A stretch of 64,000 nucleotides of DNA, taken from the NCBI GenBank assembly GCA_018812715.1, contig JAHJCT010000027.1, positions 1-64,000 of the forward strand. Reading direction: 5' to 3'. Position numbers and translations under genes: made by a program. Below, piece by piece: positions 18,026 through 29,251 of the stretch (position 1 is its first letter; each line of letters starts with the position of its first letter). The notes under the pieces are model-generated. The model made no database searches, had not been told where the DNA came from, and was given only the letters and a program-made list of their open reading frames with translations. Source of the DNA: Microcaldota archaeon (GTDB lineage: Archaea; Micrarchaeota; Micrarchaeia; Anstonellales; Bilamarchaeaceae).

Positions 18026-18168
18026 TAAACCACCATTGCATGGAGTATTTTTTCTCGTCACATTTCTTTGATACATTCCGTTTTTAAATCTGAGTAAGCC
18101 TTGCATCTCCACTTAGTTTTTAAATATTTACTTCATTTAGTTTCCTGGTCAAATTTTAAGGTGAATTG

Positions 18169-20157
18169 ATGGATGTTATTCAATTAGCTTTAGGCGCTGG
18201 TATACTGACGTTATTATACGCATTATACCTTGTCTTTAGGGTGATAAAATCGCCTGCTGGAGACACTAAAATGCAGGATATATCAAAGGCAATTCAGGAA
18301 GGTGCTAATGCATTTCTTTTCAGGCAATACAAAACATTGGCGCCCATCGTAGTAATACTAGCTATTATAATCGGCTACGGCGTCAATGTACCAACTGCAA
18401 TAGCATTCTTTGCTGGTGTGCTATCATCTGCTCTTGCCGGTTATATTGGCATGCAAATTTCTGTTCGCACTAATGTTCGCGTAGCAGAAGCAGCAAAGAA
18501 AGGACTTAAACCTGCGCTGGATCTTTCTTTTAAGGGAGGTGCAGTGACTGGAATGGCATTGGCTGGACTTGGTCTCTTGGGTGTATCTATATTGTATGTG
18601 TATTACGGTGACCTTGCACCTTTGATAGGTTATGGTTTTGGTGCTTCTTTGATTTCTCTCTTCGCTCGTGTTGGTGGCGGCATTTACACAAAAGCTGCTG
18701 ACGTTGGTGCTGATCTTGTCGGCAAAGTAGAGAAGGGAATACCAGAAGATGATCCACGAAACCCTGCAGTAATTGCAGATAACGTTGGTGATAATGTTGG
18801 TGATTGCGCTGGTATGGCAGCAGACGTTTTCGAATCGTTTGTCGTAACAGTGATAGCAGCCATGCTTCTTGGCCTTACTCTCTCTGCAACTGTTTTTGTA
18901 GAGATTCCATTGGCTATAGCAGCTATTGGTACAATCTCAGGTGTCATAGGTTCCTTTTTCGTTGGAATAGGGCCTGTGAAAAAGATTATGTCTGCTTTTT
19001 ACAGAGCATTACTAGTCAGTGTTATCATCATGGTGATAGGCACATATGTATATCTTACTGGCTTATCAAATCTCGATATTCCAGCAACGTCGCTTTTCAC
19101 TGCTGTAATCATGGGAGTAGTAACTACGTTGTTACTTTTCATGATATCAGAGTACTATACTTCAACAGAACACAAACTTGTTCGTGAAGTGGCCAAATCA
19201 TCACAAACAGGTGCAGCTACAAATCTCATATCCGGACTTGCAATTGGTATGGAATCAACAGCACTTCCTGTGTTGCTGATTACTGCCGCCATTGTAATTT
19301 CGTTTAAGGTGGCTGGGTTATATGGCGTAGGTCTTGCAGCAGCTGCAATGCTTTCCCTTAGTGGAATTGTGATTGCAATTGATAGTTATGGTCCAATTAC
19401 TGATAACGCCGGCGGCATAGCTGAAATGTCAGGTCTTCCTGCTAAAGTCAGAAAAGTTACTGATGCATTAGATGCTGTTGGAAATACTACAAAAGCAACT
19501 ACGAAATGTTATGCTATAGGAGGTGCTGCATTAGGTGCACTAGCGCTTTTTGTTGCATATGCAGAAGCAACACATCTAACTATCATCAATCTTCTTGATA
19601 CGCCTGTAGTAATTGGGCTCTTTATAGGAGCACTCTTGCCGTTCGTATTTTCTAGTCTTCTTATGCTGGCTGTTGGAAGAGCAGCATTTGAAATAGTAGA
19701 GGAAGTAAGAAGGCAGTTCAGAGAAATAAAAGGTCTTATGGCAGGAACAGGGCGAGCAGATTATGCAAAGTGTGTTGATATCTCCACTGCTACGGCGCTT
19801 AAGGAGCTTGCTTTGCCAGGCGCATTAGCTGTCCTTACACCACTTGCGGTTGGTTTCCTCTTTGGTCCAGCAGCACTAGGTGGTCTTCTTGCCGGCGTAA
19901 TAGCGAGCGGCCTTATGCTTGCTTTAACCATGACAACTGCTGGAGCCATCTGGGATAATGCCAAGAAATACATAGAAGAAGGCAATCTTGGGGGCAAAGG
20001 AGGGGAAACCCATAAAGCAGCAGTTGTTGGTGACACAGTAGGAGATCCGCTCAAGGACACTGCAGGTCCGGCACTAAACGCCCTGATAAAGGTAGTAAAT
20101 ACAGTTTCACTTGTATTTGCAAGCATAATCGTTGCCCAAAGCATTAGCGTTATCTAA
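18169..20157 (+). CDS. hppA: membrane-bound pyrophosphatase, K+-independent H+-pump type
   Basis: 662 residues with about 16 transmembrane segments. The substrate-binding loop is intact (DVGADLVGKVEKGIPEDDPR, then DNVGDNVGDCAGMAADVFES), as are the second DNAGGIAEM motif and the C-terminal DNAKKYIEEG / DTVGDPLKDTAGPA region. The GNTTKATTK segment carries Lys and Thr at the two positions that in this family distinguish K+-independent proton pumps from K+-dependent enzymes (Ala and Gly there). PPi hydrolysis would energise the membrane. The ATG at 18169 was preferred to the adjacent TTG at 18166; AAGGTG lies 6 bp before it. Confidence 0.95.
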   Translation: MDVIQLALGAGILTLLYALYLVFRVIKSPAGDTKMQDISKAIQEGANAFLFRQYKTLAPIVVILAIIIGYGVNVPTAIAFFAGVLSSALAGYIGMQISVRTNVRVAEAAKKGLKPALDLSFKGGAVTGMALAGLGLLGVSILYVYYGDLAPLIGYGFGASLISLFARVGGGIYTKAADVGADLVGKVEKGIPEDDPRNPAVIADNVGDNVGDCAGMAADVFESFVVTVIAAMLLGLTLSATVFVEIPLAIAAIGTISGVIGSFFVGIGPVKKIMSAFYRALLVSVIIMVIGTYVYLTGLSNLDIPATSLFTAVIMGVVTTLLLFMISEYYTSTEHKLVREVAKSSQTGAATNLISGLAIGMESTALPVLLITAAIVISFKVAGLYGVGLAAAAMLSLSGIVIAIDSYGPITDNAGGIAEMSGLPAKVRKVTDALDAVGNTTKATTKCYAIGGAALGALALFVAYAEATHLTIINLLDTPVVIGLFIGALLPFVFSSLLMLAVGRAAFEIVEEVRRQFREIKGLMAGTGRADYAKCVDISTATALKELALPGALAVLTPLAVGFLFGPAALGGLLAGVIASGLMLALTMTTAGAIWDNAKKYIEEGNLGGKGGETHKAAVVGDTVGDPLKDTAGPALNALIKVVNTVSLVFASIIVAQSISVI

Positions 20158-20184: not shown

Positions 20185-21444
20185 ATGTGTTATGCTATTC
20201 CTGGTAAAGTAGTTTCTGTAGATAACAAAACAGTTACTGTAGACTATTTTGGAGAATTAAGAAAAGCACACATTATTGATACCATGGTCCAGCCAAGAGA
20301 ATATGTTTATGCTCAAGGCGGCATTGTTGTAGGTAAAATATCAGAAAATGAAGCACTCCCAATTCTTGAAACATGGAAAGATCATTTTTTTGAGCTTAAG
20401 AAAATCGATGCTGGACTATCAATCTTAGATAAAGTCTCCTTTCCTATCCTAAAAAAAGTTGAAACATTGACTAAAAATGAAATGCTTACACTTCTTGCTG
20501 TTGAAGATAAAAGCGAATTAGATTCGTTTTATCACACAGCAAACAAAATCCGAAAAGAAAGATTAGATAATGCATGTTGTGTGCATGGAATATTGGAATT
20601 CTCTAATTATTGCAGTAACAACTGTCTTTATTGCGGCATTAACTGCAGTAATAAATCCATAGAACGCTATCGCATGAGCGAAAAAGAAATTTTAGATGCT
20701 GTTGATTATGCAGTACAACTTGGTTTCAAAGCACTTGTTCTTCAATCTGGTGAAGATTTGTATTACACAGATGGCATGCTCGTCAATATTGTGAAAAAAA
20801 TACGTAAAAAGCATGGAATTCTACTTTTCATGAGTATTGGAGAACGCAGTAAAGATTCTTACAAAAAACTATATGAAGCAGGAGCCTATGGTGCACTTTT
20901 ACGTTTTGAAACAGGGAACTCTAAACTCTATACCCATTTGCGGCCAGGCAAAAAGCTCGAAGATAGATTGCAGCTGATATGCGAATTGAATAACATTGGA
21001 TTTGTAATAGCTACCGGTTTTCTCATTGGCCTTCCAAATCAAACTAAAAAAGATATAATCAATGATATTTTGCTTACCAAATCCTTGCAACCTGACATGT
21101 ATTCATTTGGCCCGTTAATTCCGCACCCAGCAACTCCATTAACCTCGGTCCCAAAACCGACTTTGGACGACATACTTAAAGTCATTGCACTAACTCGAAT
21201 TGTTGATCCTGAAGCAAAAATATTAGTTACAACTGCTCTTGAAACACTTAGTTTTGATGCAAAAGAAAAAGGTTTGATGGCGGGTGGAAATTCTTTAATG
21301 ATAAATATAACTCCGCAGAAATTCAAAAAATCATATGATCTTTATCCGGGCAAAGTGATTGACGAGCCTTTGGAGGAAACCGTCAAAAAGACAGTGGGCC
21401 TATTACATTCACTAGGCCGAGCACCAACAGATCTTGGGGTATGA
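20185..21444 (+). CDS. hydE: HypC-HydE fusion, [FeFe]-hydrogenase maturation
   Basis: 419 residues in two parts. Residues 1 to about 75 are a HypC/HupF-type domain: MCYAIPGKVVSVDNKTVTVD, with Cys2, which in HypC carries the Fe(CN)2CO unit during [NiFe]-hydrogenase maturation. From residue about 100 follows a HydE-type radical SAM enzyme: the CSNNCLYC (CX3CX2C) cluster site, the IERYRMSEKEI segment, LQSGEDL, LRFETGNSKLY and IATGFLIGLP. HydE helps build the dithiolate bridge of the H-cluster. The stop overlaps hydG by ATGA. No other reading frame start separates the two domains. BioB or PylB are less likely given the strong HydE segments. Confidence 0.88.
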   Translation: MCYAIPGKVVSVDNKTVTVDYFGELRKAHIIDTMVQPREYVYAQGGIVVGKISENEALPILETWKDHFFELKKIDAGLSILDKVSFPILKKVETLTKNEMLTLLAVEDKSELDSFYHTANKIRKERLDNACCVHGILEFSNYCSNNCLYCGINCSNKSIERYRMSEKEILDAVDYAVQLGFKALVLQSGEDLYYTDGMLVNIVKKIRKKHGILLFMSIGERSKDSYKKLYEAGAYGALLRFETGNSKLYTHLRPGKKLEDRLQLICELNNIGFVIATGFLIGLPNQTKKDIINDILLTKSLQPDMYSFGPLIPHPATPLTSVPKPTLDDILKVIALTRIVDPEAKILVTTALETLSFDAKEKGLMAGGNSLMINITPQKFKKSYDLYPGKVIDEPLEETVKKTVGLLHSLGRAPTDLGV

Positions 21445-22799
21445 AAATGATTGATGAAAAAAAAATAAACGATATTTTGAACTCTACTTCTGCTCCAGAT
21501 GATAAAAGATTGGATGAGATCCTTGCTAAAGCATTGCAGAAAAAAGGAATTTCCATTGAAGAAACCGCAGAACTTCTCCATGTTTCAGGCAACCAATTAC
21601 ATGCAGTTTTCCGTACTGCATGGAAAGTAAAACATGAAATCTATGGAAATCGTCTCGTTCTTTTTGCTCCTCTCTATCTCTCAGATTTCTGTATAAATGA
21701 TTGTGAGTATTGTGGATTCCATTGCAGAAACAAAGAACTCAAACGACAGCGTTTATCAATGGAAGAAATACGAAAAGAAACAGAATTGATAATCAAAATG
21801 GGGCATAAGCGCATTCTTGTTGAATCTGGTGAACATCCAGATAACTCAGTTGATTATGTTTGTGATGCAATTAGAACTATTTATGATACAAAAATAGAGA
21901 ATGGAGAAATCAGAAGAGTAAATGTGAATATAGCCGCTACAACAGTTGAAAATTATAAAAAATTAAAAGAAATTGGGATAGGCACATATCAGCTATTCCA
22001 GGAAACATATCACAAGAAAACATATGAAAAATTACATAAAGGGCCAAAGTCTGATTATCATAGACAAATCACTGCACATGAACGCGCTTTTGAAGCTGGA
22101 ATAGATGACTATGGAATAGGTGTTCTTTTTGGTTTATATGATTACAAATTTGAAGTTCTAGCCCTTCTCTCACACGCAAGATATATGGAAGAAAAATATG
22201 GTGTTGGTCCACACACTATTTCTGTTCCAAGATTCAAGAATGCGCCATCTGTATTCTACAATCCAGAGTTTCCTGTTTCAGATTCTGATTTTCTGAAACT
22301 GATAGCAGTAATTCGTTTATCTGTTCCTTACACTGGCATGATTATTTCAACAAGAGAATCGCCAGAAATAAGAAAAAAAGCATTTGAATTAGGCATTTCT
22401 CAAACGTCGGCTGCTTCAAAAACATCTCCTGGTGGCTATTCTACAAAAGAGAATGTACAGTTCCAGCTGTCTGATCATCGACCAGTTGATGAAGTTTTGA
22501 GAGATATGTGCAACCAAGAAATGCTACCAAGTTTTTGTACTGCATGCTATCGCAGCAAAAGAACAGGAGAAACATTCATGAAACTTGCAAAAGCAGGCAA
22601 TATCCATTTCTTATGTCATCCAAATGCAATTCTAACTTTCAAGGAATATCTAGAAGATTATACCTCAGAAGAAATGAAGAAAATAGGCGAAGAAACTATT
22701 CTAAAAGAACTTGAAAAAATAGAAGATGAAAAAAGAAGAAAAGAAACAAAGAACAGACTAAAAAGAATTGAAAAAGGAGAAAGAGATCTATTTTTTTAA
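21441..22799 (+). CDS. hydG: HydG, radical SAM tyrosine lyase of [FeFe]-hydrogenase maturation
   Basis: 452 residues. The radical SAM site is CINDCEYC near residue 84, in the context LVLFAPLYLSDFC typical of HydG/ThiH. Further conserved blocks are VNVNIAATTVENYKKL, TYQLFQETYHKKTYEKLH, GIDDYGIGVLFGLYDYKFEV and GPHTISVPRF. The C-terminal auxiliary [4Fe-4S] motif of HydG is present exactly as CX2CX22C (CTACYRSKRTGETF... then Cys before HPNA), which excludes ThiH. The enzyme cleaves tyrosine to supply CO and CN- for the H-cluster. It is translationally coupled to hydE. HydF and the hydrogenase HydA are not in this window. Confidence 0.95.
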   Translation: MKMIDEKKINDILNSTSAPDDKRLDEILAKALQKKGISIEETAELLHVSGNQLHAVFRTAWKVKHEIYGNRLVLFAPLYLSDFCINDCEYCGFHCRNKELKRQRLSMEEIRKETELIIKMGHKRILVESGEHPDNSVDYVCDAIRTIYDTKIENGEIRRVNVNIAATTVENYKKLKEIGIGTYQLFQETYHKKTYEKLHKGPKSDYHRQITAHERAFEAGIDDYGIGVLFGLYDYKFEVLALLSHARYMEEKYGVGPHTISVPRFKNAPSVFYNPEFPVSDSDFLKLIAVIRLSVPYTGMIISTRESPEIRKKAFELGISQTSAASKTSPGGYSTKENVQFQLSDHRPVDEVLRDMCNQEMLPSFCTACYRSKRTGETFMKLAKAGNIHFLCHPNAILTFKEYLEDYTSEEMKKIGEETILKELEKIEDEKRRKETKNRLKRIEKGERDLFF

Positions 22800-23852: not shown

Positions 23853-25094
23853 CTAGCGAATTCTTACTCCTCCCTCGAGCTCAGACGGATTAATTCCACC
23901 TTCAGTCCATATTTGAAGTAAGACATATGAACTTTGATTCTCTTGTGTCCAGCCAGCTCCAATTACTTTTAGAAATACTGTTCTACCAGAATCGCTATGG
24001 ATTTCTTGTTCCATGAAATCTCCATCGTCTATCATTTCTTCTTCAGCTCCAGTAAGATGCATTATCATCGTATGGAGTACACCAGTGTTATACACTATCA
24101 GATTTGGTGTCATACCTATACCTGATGAATGTGTGAAGGTATATCCATCGCATAAGCTAATACTTCTATCTCCCCCTTCAAGATCTTTACATATTTCTGC
24201 ACTTTCATATTCAGAACTGTCGATACATGCACCATCAAGACACTTTGTGCCAGCCGGGCATTCTGTCATATTGCTAGCAGCAATCCCTCCACCTGTGACT
24301 GGACAATATTTTTTTACTACTTCATTTTCTGATCTGCAATGGTCATCCCACCTAACAAGATAATGTCCTTCTGCATATGTACCTTTTGTATATATGACAT
24401 AGGTAGCTGTTTCAGGATCTCTAACATCTCCGAATTCCCAACATCCTGTTTCACTAATTGGTTCAAATTCCAATTCTTCAGTTTCATTTTCTTCGGTCAC
24501 TTGTTCAAGAATTTCCTCTTCTGGCTCAGTAGGTTCTTCCTCAGTTTCATTAATTTCTTCTTTATATTCACAGTCAATTGTATCAAGAACTTCTTCATAT
24601 TTATTCCAATTACTCTCAAATTCTTCAGGTTGTGCTGCTACGTCTATGCCAAACAATGTGTTATTGCAGGATATAACAAATATTTTTCCTATTTGATCAA
24701 AGTTATCATCACTTGCATCTACTAGGTACTCTCCTTCAAATGCGGGTATTCCATTGAGCTCAGACTCCTTCATTGTTGGTTTTTCAAATGTACCACCCAT
24801 TGCAATGTATATTGCTTTGCTTCCCAATGTCTCATCAGCAATTTCATCTGGCGATAATGCAGGACCATCAAAAATTCTTATTCTTATTCGGCCCATGCCA
24901 TCTTCTGATTTACAAGTGATGTTCTCATTATCTACATGCCACTCCTTTTGTTCGCTTTCCCAAGTGGCAGGACATGTGAATCTGAAACCCTTGATATTAT
25001 ACTCTTTAGACTCCGCGTTAAGAATTTTCTCTTCCCCTCCTAAACATCCAAAAATCAAAATTCCAAAAACAATTATTAATGCAAAATATTTCAT
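23853..25094 (-). CDS. secreted lipoprotein with acidic linker
   Basis: 413 residues. The N-terminus (MKYFALIIVFGILIFGCLGG) is a lipoprotein signal with Cys17 as the likely lipidated residue. Residues about 30-180 form one globular domain, followed by a Glu/Thr-rich acidic linker near 185-225, a six-cysteine region (CRSENEVVKKYC, CPAGTKCLDGACI) and a C-terminal beta-rich domain with several His/Met (TMIMHLTGAEEEM). No family was recognised. Its ATG overlaps the stop of the membrane AAA+ gene, so the two are translated as a unit. The lipoprotein would face outward while the ATPase acts inside. Confidence 0.65.
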   Translation of the reverse strand: MKYFALIIVFGILIFGCLGGEEKILNAESKEYNIKGFRFTCPATWESEQKEWHVDNENITCKSEDGMGRIRIRIFDGPALSPDEIADETLGSKAIYIAMGGTFEKPTMKESELNGIPAFEGEYLVDASDDNFDQIGKIFVISCNNTLFGIDVAAQPEEFESNWNKYEEVLDTIDCEYKEEINETEEEPTEPEEEILEQVTEENETEELEFEPISETGCWEFGDVRDPETATYVIYTKGTYAEGHYLVRWDDHCRSENEVVKKYCPVTGGGIAASNMTECPAGTKCLDGACIDSSEYESAEICKDLEGGDRSISLCDGYTFTHSSGIGMTPNLIVYNTGVLHTMIMHLTGAEEEMIDDGDFMEQEIHSDSGRTVFLKVIGAGWTQENQSSYVLLQIWTEGGINPSELEGGVRIR

Positions 25095-28000
25095 CTTCTC
25101 TCACCATATGCTTCAAGGAATCTCTTGTACTCCTGAAGTAATTCATTTGTAATCGATGGTCTTCTTCTTTTTATTATATCCGCCAGCAGCTGTGTTGTGA
25201 CTTGTATTGGTTTTCCTTCAAGTTTTGATCTAAGGGCATCCATCTTAGCGCTTTGGCATATTGCCCCTATATCAGCACCACTGAATCCTGGCGTTATCTT
25301 AGCCAGTGCTGCCAAATCCACATTTTCTGCAAATTTCCCCAAATGTATCTTAAAGATTTCTGCTCTTCCTTTTTCATCTGGGGGCGGAATATAAAAAATC
25401 TTGTCAAATCTTCCAGGACGCATAATCGCAGCATCCATAAGTTGTGGTTTGTTGGTGGCTGCTATAACTACTACTCCTTTTTGACTTGATGTTCCATCCA
25501 TCTCAGTAAGGAACTGGCCGATTATTTCTGCTGATCCACCAGAACCTCTTCCTGGTGCAAATGTTTCTATTTCATCAACAAAAATTATTCCAGGTGGATT
25601 TTCTCTTGCCCTATTAAATGTTTCCTTAATTACAGTAACTGCTTGTGTGTACCCCTTTTTCATGGCCTCTGCTGCACTTAATGCCTGGAATGATGCATTG
25701 AGTTCATTTGCGGCAGCACGTACAATAAGGGTTTTACCAGTACCTGGTGGCCCAAATAACAGAATTCCTTTACTTGGCTTTACTTTGAAGTTTTTCATTT
25801 CTTCTTCATGAAGCAATGGCAGTTCTATTGCCTCAAGAAGTGCTCGTTTTACATCATCTAGTCCTGCAACATCTTCCCATTTGATTGCACTTTCTTTTCT
25901 CCTTTCTTCTTCTTTTCGTTCTGTTGCACCACTAACACGGCGTTCAAAATCAAGTCTGAATTGTTCGTACATATCAAGTTGAGAAAGACCAGTACTTGGT
26001 TTTATATTTTCAAGAGTTCTAAGGATGTGGTTCATACCAATTGGAACAACTACACCTTTTTTTACTGCTTCTTCTGCAGCAAGTCTTTTTGCTTCTGTTA
26101 TAACGTTTTTCAAATCAGCTCCAGAGAATCTATCTGTTTTCTTTATGATTGTAGCAAAGTCGAGGTCATCTGCTAATGGAAGTCCCTTTGCATGCACTTT
26201 GAGTATTGCCTCTCTTGCTTCTGGATCAGGAAGATGCATATAAATTATTTTGTCTAGTCTTCCAGGTCTAAGAATTGCAGGATCAAGTTCATTGGGCAGG
26301 TTAGTTGCGCCTACAACCATAACTGTAGCCTTTGTTTTGCTTGCACCATCTATCTGCTGTAACAGTTCACTAAGTACCCTTGGTCCTACCTGGTCAAGAC
26401 CACCAGCAGTTCTTTTCTTTGCTACCCCATCTATTTCATCAAAGAAAAGCACTGTAGGCGCATTCTTTCTTGCATTATCAAATACCTCAGCTACATTTTT
26501 TTCACTATTATGGGCAAATATACCTCCAAAACCAGCAACAAAATTCTGACATGGTTTTACTGAAATATCATACACAAATTTCTCATTATTAACTCGTTTT
26601 ACCTCTTCTACACGATCAAAGTATATATCGTTCTCAATTTCTTCTAATCCTGCATCTTCCAGGACATCTCTGCCGATGCTGTCTGAATGATTCCATTTTG
26701 GGAGCTGCTGTTCAATAATTGTCTTAAGCCTTCCTGTAATTGGAATCTGTTCATTTCTAAACCAACCGACTCTGCTGATTGAATTTTCTAATCTTTTCAT
26801 TCTTTCTGCATCAAGAAATCCTATTTCTTTAAAGTTGGTTAACTGTTTGCCTCCCATCATGCAGATTCTATATGAATTAGTTCCATTCCATTCTTTTTTT
26901 CTATAAACTTTAGCTACTATCCCAAAATACAACAACATATAAAGAATCTGATCTGTCAACCCTCTGCTCGTAGTGGATCCTTCTACTGTTGCCACCCCTC
27001 TTTGATTTTCATATATTGTTCCATCGCCACTAAAGTATCCTCTAAGTAAAGCCTTCATATTCTCTCTGTTGAAATTAAATGCAATCTTCGGTATCTTCTT
27101 TCTTTTTGCTCCACTTTCCAGACCAAGCACATCTCTAAACAATACATATAATGGCCTTGAACCAATGTATACATCCCTTCCTTTGCTGTTTTTCTTCTTG
27201 TATAAAGTTACTTTACCAAATAATGTTCTGCATAATTTAGCAATTTTTTTAATTTCCTTATCCGAAACACTAATTCTTATTGTATCTTTTCGATTATAAC
27301 TGCCTTCAGCGATCCATAATCCAATGAATGTTGCAAGTTTCTCATCGATTTTCATTACTCCTGGCAATGTTTTACTTCCAGCCCCAATCAAAATTTTCTC
27401 TTTATCAATTTGTATTCCACTCACTTGCATGAGCCGAAGGAATCGACTAACTCTCACACCAACGTCGTCATTTATTACCTGGTCAATGTAATGCTCTCTA
27501 TTATACCTAAGGACCTTTGCAACTTTTTTTCTTCCAAGTTTTGTTACTGCTTTGTTTAGATATCTAGCAGCATTCTTCACAAAGAGTCCATGATCATCCT
27601 TTTCTAATGCTGATATGAAATCTATTTCATTAGTTGGTTTGTAGACAAACTGTATTCTATTAGGAATTGCAATGTATGAAGATTTTGGTATGAGTTTTGA
27701 TGTCGGGATACTTTCTATTTTTGTTCCATTAAGTGTAAATAAGGAATGATAATCTGTTACGCGAATTCTTCTTCCAGTTCTTGTTCTAATCTCATAAATT
27801 GGTGAAGTACACCTATGTTTTATCCAATCCCCGATATTAGCGAAAACTGCTTTTCCATAAATGTCAAAACTTAGAACTTTCACTCTTTGTTTTTCTTCTA
27901 CAATCTTTTCTATTTCAACAAATTTTATTTTTCCTTTTTCATCTTTTACTATTAGTTTCTCATTACCGGGAAGAGATTCACCATACCATTGAGATAAAAT

Positions 28001-29251
28001 CTGGGAACATTTAACCTCTATAAAATTATATTTCAGGTCTTTTGCAAGGGCCCTCATGAGCATTGTTTTACCAGTACCAGGAGGACCAAATAACAGAATA
28101 CCTGCCGGCGGTTTTATTCCATAAGTAAAAGCTATTTCTTTTTTCTCAAGCGGTAGCATTATTGCATTTCTTAATTCGTCTTTAACATCAACATAACCAC
28201 CAACATCATCGAGTCCTTTCTCATCTCCACTAAGTGAAATGTCTGCCATGCCAAATTTTCCATATGCCTTCATCTTTTCTTGTCTTCCAATTACTGACTC
28301 TCTGCTTATGTTAAGACCAATATGCTCAAGTGCTCCTAACACGCCTATAGCAAATATGATTCCTCCAACAAACTCAATTTTGAATGGTGTTCCATATATT
28401 ATTGATACAAGAAAATGGAACGGTATAGTAATTAGCAATGCAAGTGATGAAAACAATTGAGGTCTTTTCTTAATGCGTGGCGGAAGATAACCAAGAAGAT
28501 ACAGTGCGATTCCCCATCCAATAAGCTGGAGTATAAGTGAGTCATTTGTCATTAAGAGTACAACATTACCGAGTATCCAACCTACTGATTCCCACACTCT
28601 TTGTAGATTATCTAAGCTAAGAAATCCGCCAATAGCACCGCTTATTTCAGGTGCTATTTCTGTGATACCGACGGCAGCTTTAGTGAATTGAAGCTCTGCT
28701 TTTCCAGGTTGATAAAGATCCATTTTCAGAGGCATATAAGCAGTATTTTCAACCAACCAAATAGATGACAATATCAGTATCAGCATTACCGAAGGAATAG
28801 AAATAGCAACGCTCTTTTTGGAACCAAAATAAAGAGCCCCCATCCCCATTCCAGCTAGTCCAATCCATCCTACAAGAGGGAAACCACCGAAAGCAAATGG
28901 TGCAAGAATAAGCACTTCAAGCACAGCAACCACTTTCCAATTTTCAAAGACTTCGAATAATATTACAGTAGCTAATAGCAGATAGAACCAGCCAAATATT
29001 GCAGATTGGTATATAATTGCAGGGAATGCAAGTAACACTCCTATAATAATTCCCATTGGCGGTTTTTTGTATGCTACTGCTCCGCATGCTGTTGCAAGTA
29101 CAAAAACCAGATAAATTGGATAAAATGGAATTGTAGATAAAAGAAACAATGCACCAAAAAATACTAACAAGGCAGCAGATACGCTTTCATCTTTTTGCAA
29201 AGTTGATACATATGCTGCTACTTTTTGTCCTGCAAGTGATTGCTGTTGCAT
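25091..29251 (-). CDS. membrane-anchored tandem AAA+ ATPase (Cdc48-like) with intein
   Basis: 1386 residues before splicing, 896 after. Residues about 24-310 carry roughly ten hydrophobic segments, an integral membrane N-terminus absent from ordinary Cdc48/p97. The first AAA module has Walker A GPPGTGKT at 389-396, is interrupted at WYGE|S by the intein, and resumes with FFDEID near 936-941 and RPGR near 995. The second module, near residues 1130-1360, has GPPGTGKT, IIFVDEIETFA, ATNKPQLMD and RPGRFD. Both ATPase sites look intact. Unfolding or extracting membrane proteins is inferred. The gene is 25 bp downstream of the aminotransferase gene and is coupled to the lipoprotein gene. Confidence 0.88.
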   Translation of the reverse strand: MQQQSLAGQKVAAYVSTLQKDESVSAALLVFFGALFLLSTIPFYPIYLVFVLATACGAVAYKKPPMGIIIGVLLAFPAIIYQSAIFGWFYLLLATVILFEVFENWKVVAVLEVLILAPFAFGGFPLVGWIGLAGMGMGALYFGSKKSVAISIPSVMLILILSSIWLVENTAYMPLKMDLYQPGKAELQFTKAAVGITEIAPEISGAIGGFLSLDNLQRVWESVGWILGNVVLLMTNDSLILQLIGWGIALYLLGYLPPRIKKRPQLFSSLALLITIPFHFLVSIIYGTPFKIEFVGGIIFAIGVLGALEHIGLNISRESVIGRQEKMKAYGKFGMADISLSGDEKGLDDVGGYVDVKDELRNAIMLPLEKKEIAFTYGIKPPAGILLFGPPGTGKTMLMRALAKDLKYNFIEVKCSQILSQWYGESLPGNEKLIVKDEKGKIKFVEIEKIVEEKQRVKVLSFDIYGKAVFANIGDWIKHRCTSPIYEIRTRTGRRIRVTDYHSLFTLNGTKIESIPTSKLIPKSSYIAIPNRIQFVYKPTNEIDFISALEKDDHGLFVKNAARYLNKAVTKLGRKKVAKVLRYNREHYIDQVINDDVGVRVSRFLRLMQVSGIQIDKEKILIGAGSKTLPGVMKIDEKLATFIGLWIAEGSYNRKDTIRISVSDKEIKKIAKLCRTLFGKVTLYKKKNSKGRDVYIGSRPLYVLFRDVLGLESGAKRKKIPKIAFNFNRENMKALLRGYFSGDGTIYENQRGVATVEGSTTSRGLTDQILYMLLYFGIVAKVYRKKEWNGTNSYRICMMGGKQLTNFKEIGFLDAERMKRLENSISRVGWFRNEQIPITGRLKTIIEQQLPKWNHSDSIGRDVLEDAGLEEIENDIYFDRVEEVKRVNNEKFVYDISVKPCQNFVAGFGGIFAHNSEKNVAEVFDNARKNAPTVLFFDEIDGVAKKRTAGGLDQVGPRVLSELLQQIDGASKTKATVMVVGATNLPNELDPAILRPGRLDKIIYMHLPDPEAREAILKVHAKGLPLADDLDFATIIKKTDRFSGADLKNVITEAKRLAAEEAVKKGVVVPIGMNHILRTLENIKPSTGLSQLDMYEQFRLDFERRVSGATERKEEERRKESAIKWEDVAGLDDVKRALLEAIELPLLHEEEMKNFKVKPSKGILLFGPPGTGKTLIVRAAANELNASFQALSAAEAMKKGYTQAVTVIKETFNRARENPPGIIFVDEIETFAPGRGSGGSAEIIGQFLTEMDGTSSQKGVVVIAATNKPQLMDAAIMRPGRFDKIFYIPPPDEKGRAEIFKIHLGKFAENVDLAALAKITPGFSGADIGAICQSAKMDALRSKLEGKPIQVTTQLLADIIKRRRPSITNELLQEYKRFLEAYGERR
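26507..27976 (-). mobile_element. intein with LAGLIDADG homing endonuclease, in the AAA+ ATPase
   Basis: 490 residues (426-915 of the precursor). The first residue is Ser in block A (SLPGNEKLIVKDEKG), block B is RIRVTDYHSLFTLNG, and the end is VYDISVKPCQNFVAG then GGIFAHN, followed by Ser as the +1 nucleophile. Removal restores WYGESEKNVAEVF, the unbroken AAA sequence. Two LAGLIDADG motifs (FIGLWIAEGS and LLRGYFSGDGTI) lie between the splicing blocks with acidic residues kept, so the endonuclease may be active. Insertion between Walker A and B of a conserved AAA site is a common choice for inteins. Confidence 0.95.

Follow-up and report, generated by a model that had tools for sequence, protein, structure and literature searches.

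Comparative evidence that a HypC-HydE fusion, with HydG, probably replaces HypD, HypE and HypF in [NiFe] hydrogenase maturation

What is a carrier domain of [NiFe] hydrogenase maturation doing at the front of an enzyme of [FeFe] hydrogenase maturation? In the textbook view the two systems, HydEFG for [FeFe] and HypA-F for [NiFe] enzymes, are strictly apart, each with separate CO/CN machinery (PMC6802093). A 64,000-nucleotide stretch of DNA from a Microcaldota archaeon (the window, for its whole length) encodes a HypC-HydE fusion protein directly followed by HydG. A sequence-only reading of the window had rightly said that the fusion joins the two maturation systems; it went on to suggest that the protein serves an [FeFe] hydrogenase, where HypC might do some of the scaffold work of HydF. 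Comparison across many genomes leads us to a different client: it is highly probable, on comparative sequence evidence, that the fusion and HydG replace HypD, HypE and HypF in the maturation of [NiFe] hydrogenases.

The two genes and their ATGA overlap are as first described (Table 1). Residues 1 to 64 of the fusion are recognized as HypC in a profile search (38.5 bits; the cut-off of the HupF/HypC family, PF01455, is 28.5), and this domain, modelled alone with moderate confidence (pLDDT 65), finds its best structural match in the HypC crystal structure 2z1c. Residues 89 to 392 score 292.8 bits against the HydE model TIGR03956 (cut-off, 254.6), in line with the sequence match to HydE in the PDB. 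For the entire fusion, AlphaFold gives a model with a pLDDT of 92.9 and a pTM of 0.92, whose best structural matches are Thermotoga maritima HydE with Fe(CO)2CNCl bound or with complex-B bound. The following protein exceeds the HydG cut-off of 312 bits (558.5 bits) and keeps both the radical-SAM motif and the auxiliary cluster motif attributed to it at the outset.

Table 1. Positions in the window of the fusion gene, hydG and their functional sites
Feature	Position	Strand	Basis
hypC-hydE fusion gene, 419 aa	20185..21444	+	PF01455 and TIGR03956 matches, AlphaFold model
HypC domain, residues 1-64	20185..20376	+	PF01455 E=1.3e-9; sequence and fold match to solved HypC
Cys2 of HypC, expected Fe-binding residue	20188..20190	+	Invariant in 52 aligned fusions; role per PMC11565642
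Gln44, at the position of His in solved HypC proteins	20314..20316	+	Near-invariant in fusions
HydE (radical SAM) part, residues 88-419	20446..21444	+	TIGR03956; PDB HydE E=2e-71
Cys132-Val-His134, signature of [NiFe]-associated HydE clade	20578..20586	+	Residue comparison across HydE clades
CX3CX2C radical-SAM cluster site of HydE	20611..20634	+	Invariant in 52 fusions
hydG, 452 aa, ATGA overlap with fusion gene	21441..22799	+	TIGR03955, 558.5 bits
HydG radical-SAM motif CINDCEYC	21690..21713	+	Motif intact
HydG C-terminal auxiliary cluster motif CX2CX22C	22536..22616	+	Motif intact

Two other genes of the window may be recorded here. A membrane H+-pyrophosphatase gene (18166-20157, + strand) lies directly upstream of the fusion, an order that is also found in a related genome (G005, locus L004). 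Further downstream, the opposite strand (25091-29251) encodes an AAA ATPase that has two domains, membrane-like segments at its N terminus and a LAGLIDADG intein (PF14890, PF14528).

Fusions from other genomes have the same architecture. The HypC and radical-SAM domains were both found in all 52 aligned fusion proteins, with a PF01455 match in every one. In the VxVHxGF strand, where HypC/HupF proteins have a conserved His, the window fusion has Gln44; the conservation of this residue among fusions, like that of the MCYAIPG and YAQGG motifs, partly reflects search bias, YAQGG having been a search pattern.

The fused HydEs form one clade with signature residues of its own. In the HydE tree, classical and [NiFe]-type sequences separate with 99% SH-aLRT support, and the fused clade has 95%. 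Fused and unfused [NiFe]-type HydEs have in common Cys132, His134, Phe241, Glu353 and Ser370 (Phe241 also occurs in one classical HydE). The Cys132-Val-His134 signature is present in 84 of 84 fused and both unfused [NiFe]-type sequences and in none of 10 classical ones; at position 134, on the first barrel strand, all 10 classical HydEs have Arg, and the [NiFe]-type proteins, that of the window included, have His. The HydG tree showed no separation between [FeFe] and [NiFe] routes, as expected if the same HydG product feeds both.

The genome from which the window comes (1.27 Mb, 90% complete) holds a candidate client. A single large subunit of the [NiFe] type passes the cut-off there, and the group-4-like operon around it (L070) also encodes the maturation protease HycI (PF01750, E=1.3e-11), a small subunit, an antiporter-like subunit and subunits resembling NuoC, NuoH and NuoI. 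The ligand motifs of the large subunit, RTCGIC and DPCISC, are intact. This operon is at ~75 kb on contig C36, and the fusion is on a different contig. At the stated completeness, no HydA or HypD was found in the genome, nor any HydF, HypE or HypF over the cut-off, and the window itself is without HydF and HydA, as the sequence-only reading had correctly noted. HypA was not seen in the roughly half of the genome examined for it.

Among 99 related genomes compared, eight carry a full-length fusion (the window's own and G001, G005, G006, G009, G022, G037 and G092), and two more have fragments (G030 and G024). A [NiFe] large subunit passes the cut-off in every one of the eight, and in G037 it shares a single 8.5-kb contig with the fusion; none of the eight has HydA, HydF, HypD or HypE over the cut-off. 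A relative that lacks the fusion (G074) has HypD, HypE, HypF and a [NiFe] enzyme, so the searches for these proteins do work. HydE without HypC is found alongside HydF and HydA in G039 and G044, which are classical [FeFe] sets, and also in G060 and G064, which have a [NiFe] enzyme and neither HydF nor HydA. Within the window's genus, the fusion and a group-4-like [NiFe] enzyme occur together in four genomes, with one discordant genome in each direction (Fisher p=0.01, for a small sample with assignment by frame length).

Many relatives have an intact-looking [NiFe] enzyme of the group-3-like kind but lack HypDEF and HydE/HydG alike, so that in this lineage the absence of HypDEF alone is no proof that HydE and HydG have taken their place. 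Near such loci we find HypC, DUF6390, EamA and a protease-like gene. The DUF6390 proteins (L074:4804-5547, L082:4741-5478, L084:6715-7449 and L083:14894-15595) have a weak C-terminal HypC-like match, are fused behind HypC in one case, and have EamA transporters nearby in several; the group-3-like [NiFe] operons near them are without HypDEF and mostly without HydE/HydG. These loci are possibly another maturation route, and searches of the open-access literature gave no earlier report linking DUF6390 to hydrogenase. Two more arrangements were seen among the relatives. In G091 (L016:1175-2203), HypA-like and HypC genes precede a third gene whose product ends in a HypC-like domain (PF01455, E=1.6e-8), and this set adjoins a [NiFe] hydrogenase and is without HypD. 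In G005 (L072:5229-7292), a LAGLIDADG intein splits the [NiFe] small subunit between GGC and NGCTLE, in the proximal-cluster motif.

Across 84,980 scanned species genomes, 190 stretches are related to the fusion, which is not a one-off, and this recurrence rules out chance or artefact as its origin. Taxonomy and neighborhoods were taken for the best 80 of the 190. In these, the archaeal hosts include Micrarchaeota, Woesearchaeota, Nanoarchaeota and Aenigmatarchaeota, and the bacterial ones include Omnitrophota, Margulisbacteria/Saganbacteria, Elusimicrobia, Planctomycetes, Lentisphaerae, Nitrospirae, Spirochaetes and others, together with MAGs labelled Gammaproteobacteria. Most of the fusions found are bacterial; the original description of the system as archaeal is true of the window and too narrow for the family. 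The fusion genomes all appear to be MAGs, mostly incomplete drafts with many short contigs.

At least one [NiFe] marker lies within 10 kb of the fusion at 43 of these 80 loci, often as the adjacent gene. Neighbors include the [NiFe] large subunit (39 loci), HycI (37), the small subunit (34) and Pfam-confirmed HypA (21), and a frequent order is large subunit, HycI and then the fusion, with HydG and HypA nearby. HydG is in the flanks of 49 loci and absent from those of 31; in the one such genome examined, in part (G111, a MAG labelled Gammaproteobacteria), HydG is on another contig. A Nitrospirae locus (L137) has a single 943-residue HypC-HydE-HydG triple fusion behind a [NiFe] operon. Neither HypD nor HypE was found in the flanks of the fusion loci, and no conserved candidate gene emerged there beyond [NiFe] subunits, HycI, HypA and housekeeping or redox genes. 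The [NiFe] ligand motifs are intact in essentially all of the fusion-associated enzymes.

Whole-genome searches covered 58 fusion genomes, namely, 50 wider carriers and the eight DPANN genomes listed above; Omnitrophota, Margulisbacteria and Elusimicrobia are among the groups represented. A [NiFe] large subunit is present in 57 of the 58 (49/50 and 8/8), the one genome with no [NiFe] match being G132. HypD was found in none (0/50 and 0/8), nor was HypF over the cut-off. HydA is absent from 49 of the 58. Weak matches to HydF, HypE and HypF were not accepted as real, since they fall far below the curated cut-offs, cover only those parts of the models common to generic GTPases or other families, and are given by the same models in all 14 named control genomes. 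Four of the 14 controls have both a HypD match and a [NiFe] match over the cut-off.

These counts bear on the suggestion that the fusion matures an [FeFe] hydrogenase, HypC replacing part of HydF. The clear homology to HydE and HydG speaks for such a role, as does HydA in nine of the 50 wider carriers, yet no [FeFe] hydrogenase was found in the window's genome, in the seven other fusion-bearing relatives or in the remaining 41 wider carriers, an outcome that the sequence-only reading had itself named as speaking against its proposal. Where HydA and linked maturases do occur together (G115, G130 and G145), HydA comes with its own second HydE, free of HypC, and with HydF, apart from the fusion; in G115 HydF stands with the second HydA of that genome, and in G115 and G130 the fusion sits behind the [NiFe] large subunit. 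The consistent and often adjoining partner of the fusion is the [NiFe] enzyme, in whose operons it is located, and we regard [FeFe] service as very improbable and that part of the sequence-only reading as probably wrong. Even less credit goes to the idea that HypC-HydE and HydG build an organometallic cofactor for an enzyme other than a hydrogenase, the [NiFe] link being secondary. The pocket residues are indeed unlike those of classical HydE and G132 is without a detected [NiFe] enzyme, but the near-complete co-occurrence with the large subunit speaks against it, as do the adjacency of HycI and the presence of a HypC domain. An assembly or annotation artefact, or a non-functional remnant, would have to explain a full open fusion with invariant catalytic Cys residues in independent assemblies from many phyla, and a triple fusion besides; even with every genome involved apparently a MAG, we give this practically no weight.

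Another reading is that HypC receives from HydG and HydE no more than a portion of the unit, such as CO or a carrier of Fe-CO, with cyanide coming from another, unrecognized source. The synthon that HydG makes and passes directly to HydE is a mononuclear Fe(CN)(CO)2 species (PMC12752695); the usual unit of [NiFe] enzymes is Fe(CN)2(CO). This mismatch in CN:CO favors partial supply and counts against our main proposal, and the group-3-like [NiFe] enzymes with neither HydE/HydG nor HypDEF suggest that another source may exist. Against this, HydG makes cyanide itself, HypE and HypF over the cut-off are absent, and the fusion neighborhoods offer no other conserved candidate gene. We consider partial supply improbable. 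The mismatch has another conceivable outcome, in which the HydG synthon itself is installed, giving a [NiFe] active site with Fe(CN)(CO)2 in place of Fe(CN)2(CO); this seems to us rather unlikely, but if it were true, the active site would stand midway between those of [NiFe] and [FeFe] hydrogenases.

In the route that we favor, with HydG and the fusion replacing HypD, HypE and HypF, HydG would cleave tyrosine and make the Fe-CO/CN synthon, a step established for HydG elsewhere and suggested here by its intact motifs. The synthon would then move from HydG to the HydE part, as is established for classical HydE. There, the changed pocket (the five signature residues) may hand a mononuclear Fe unit to Cys2 of HypC, avoiding the dimerization for HydF that occurs with classical HydE; it is at this step that the CN:CO mismatch would have to be reconciled. 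HypC carries Fe(CN)2CO on Cys2, paired with Cys41 of HypD, and has been proposed to deliver the Fe unit alone to the large subunit (PMC11565642). The fusion puts the HydG/HydE synthon step and the HypC carrier step in one chain, and HypC as holder of the Fe-CO/CN unit, as first suggested for this locus, is the natural reading. What HypD supplies elsewhere would come from the altered HydE barrel, with Cys132 and His134 as candidates. Like an ordinary HypC, the fused domain would next place the unit in the apo-large subunit, after which HypA would add nickel and HycI would trim the tail, both genes being present in relatives or in the window's own genome. In that genome the client would be the group-4-like [NiFe] hydrogenase.

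To our knowledge, the Fe-CO-cyanide half of the [NiFe] site has until now been credited only to HypD, HypE and HypF, which are unrelated to HydE and HydG, and we know of no settled answer to the question of a general anaerobic CO source for [NiFe] maturation. Searches of the open-access literature, with subscription papers and preprints mostly outside its scope, gave no earlier report of HypC with HydE/HydG or of HydG in [NiFe] maturation. Judged by that literature, what would be new is the system as a third hydrogenase maturation route, not the protein families, which are known. If the proposal is true, the active site of a hydrogenase can be built in a third way, fed by HydG and delivered by HypC. 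Such a path would account for [NiFe] maturation without HypDEF in these DPANN archaea and candidate-phylum bacteria, give them a defined CO source for anaerobic [NiFe] maturation, and allow [NiFe] hydrogenases to be produced elsewhere with fewer genes. The proposal also carries a warning, that annotation of HydE and HydG does not imply an [FeFe] hydrogenase.

The fusion system resembles HydEFG in its HydG and HydE families, in the tyrosine-derived CO/CN chemistry expected of them and in their intact cluster motifs. It differs in being without HydF and usually without HydA, in having a [NiFe] enzyme as its probable client, and in a HydE that is joined to HypC and has, in its first barrel strand, His for Arg and an added Cys. 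With HypA-F it has in common the HypC carrier, HycI, HypA (in relatives) and a putative client whose large subunit has its four Cys ligands intact, but it is without HypD, HypE and HypF, its HypC has Gln for His, and its ligands would come from a radical-SAM pair rather than from carbamoyl phosphate. The HypX route (PMC6802093) is similar in that an alternative ligand source feeds a HypC scaffold; HypX, however, makes CO only, from formyl-THF, and acts on the HypC/HypD complex with cyanide made by HypE/HypF. HcgA and HcgG of [Fe]-hydrogenase cofactor synthesis are likewise radical-SAM enzymes in the synthesis of an organometallic Fe cofactor (PMC10100467), but they belong to another family (HmdB model, 78 bits against a cut-off of 321) and serve another cofactor.
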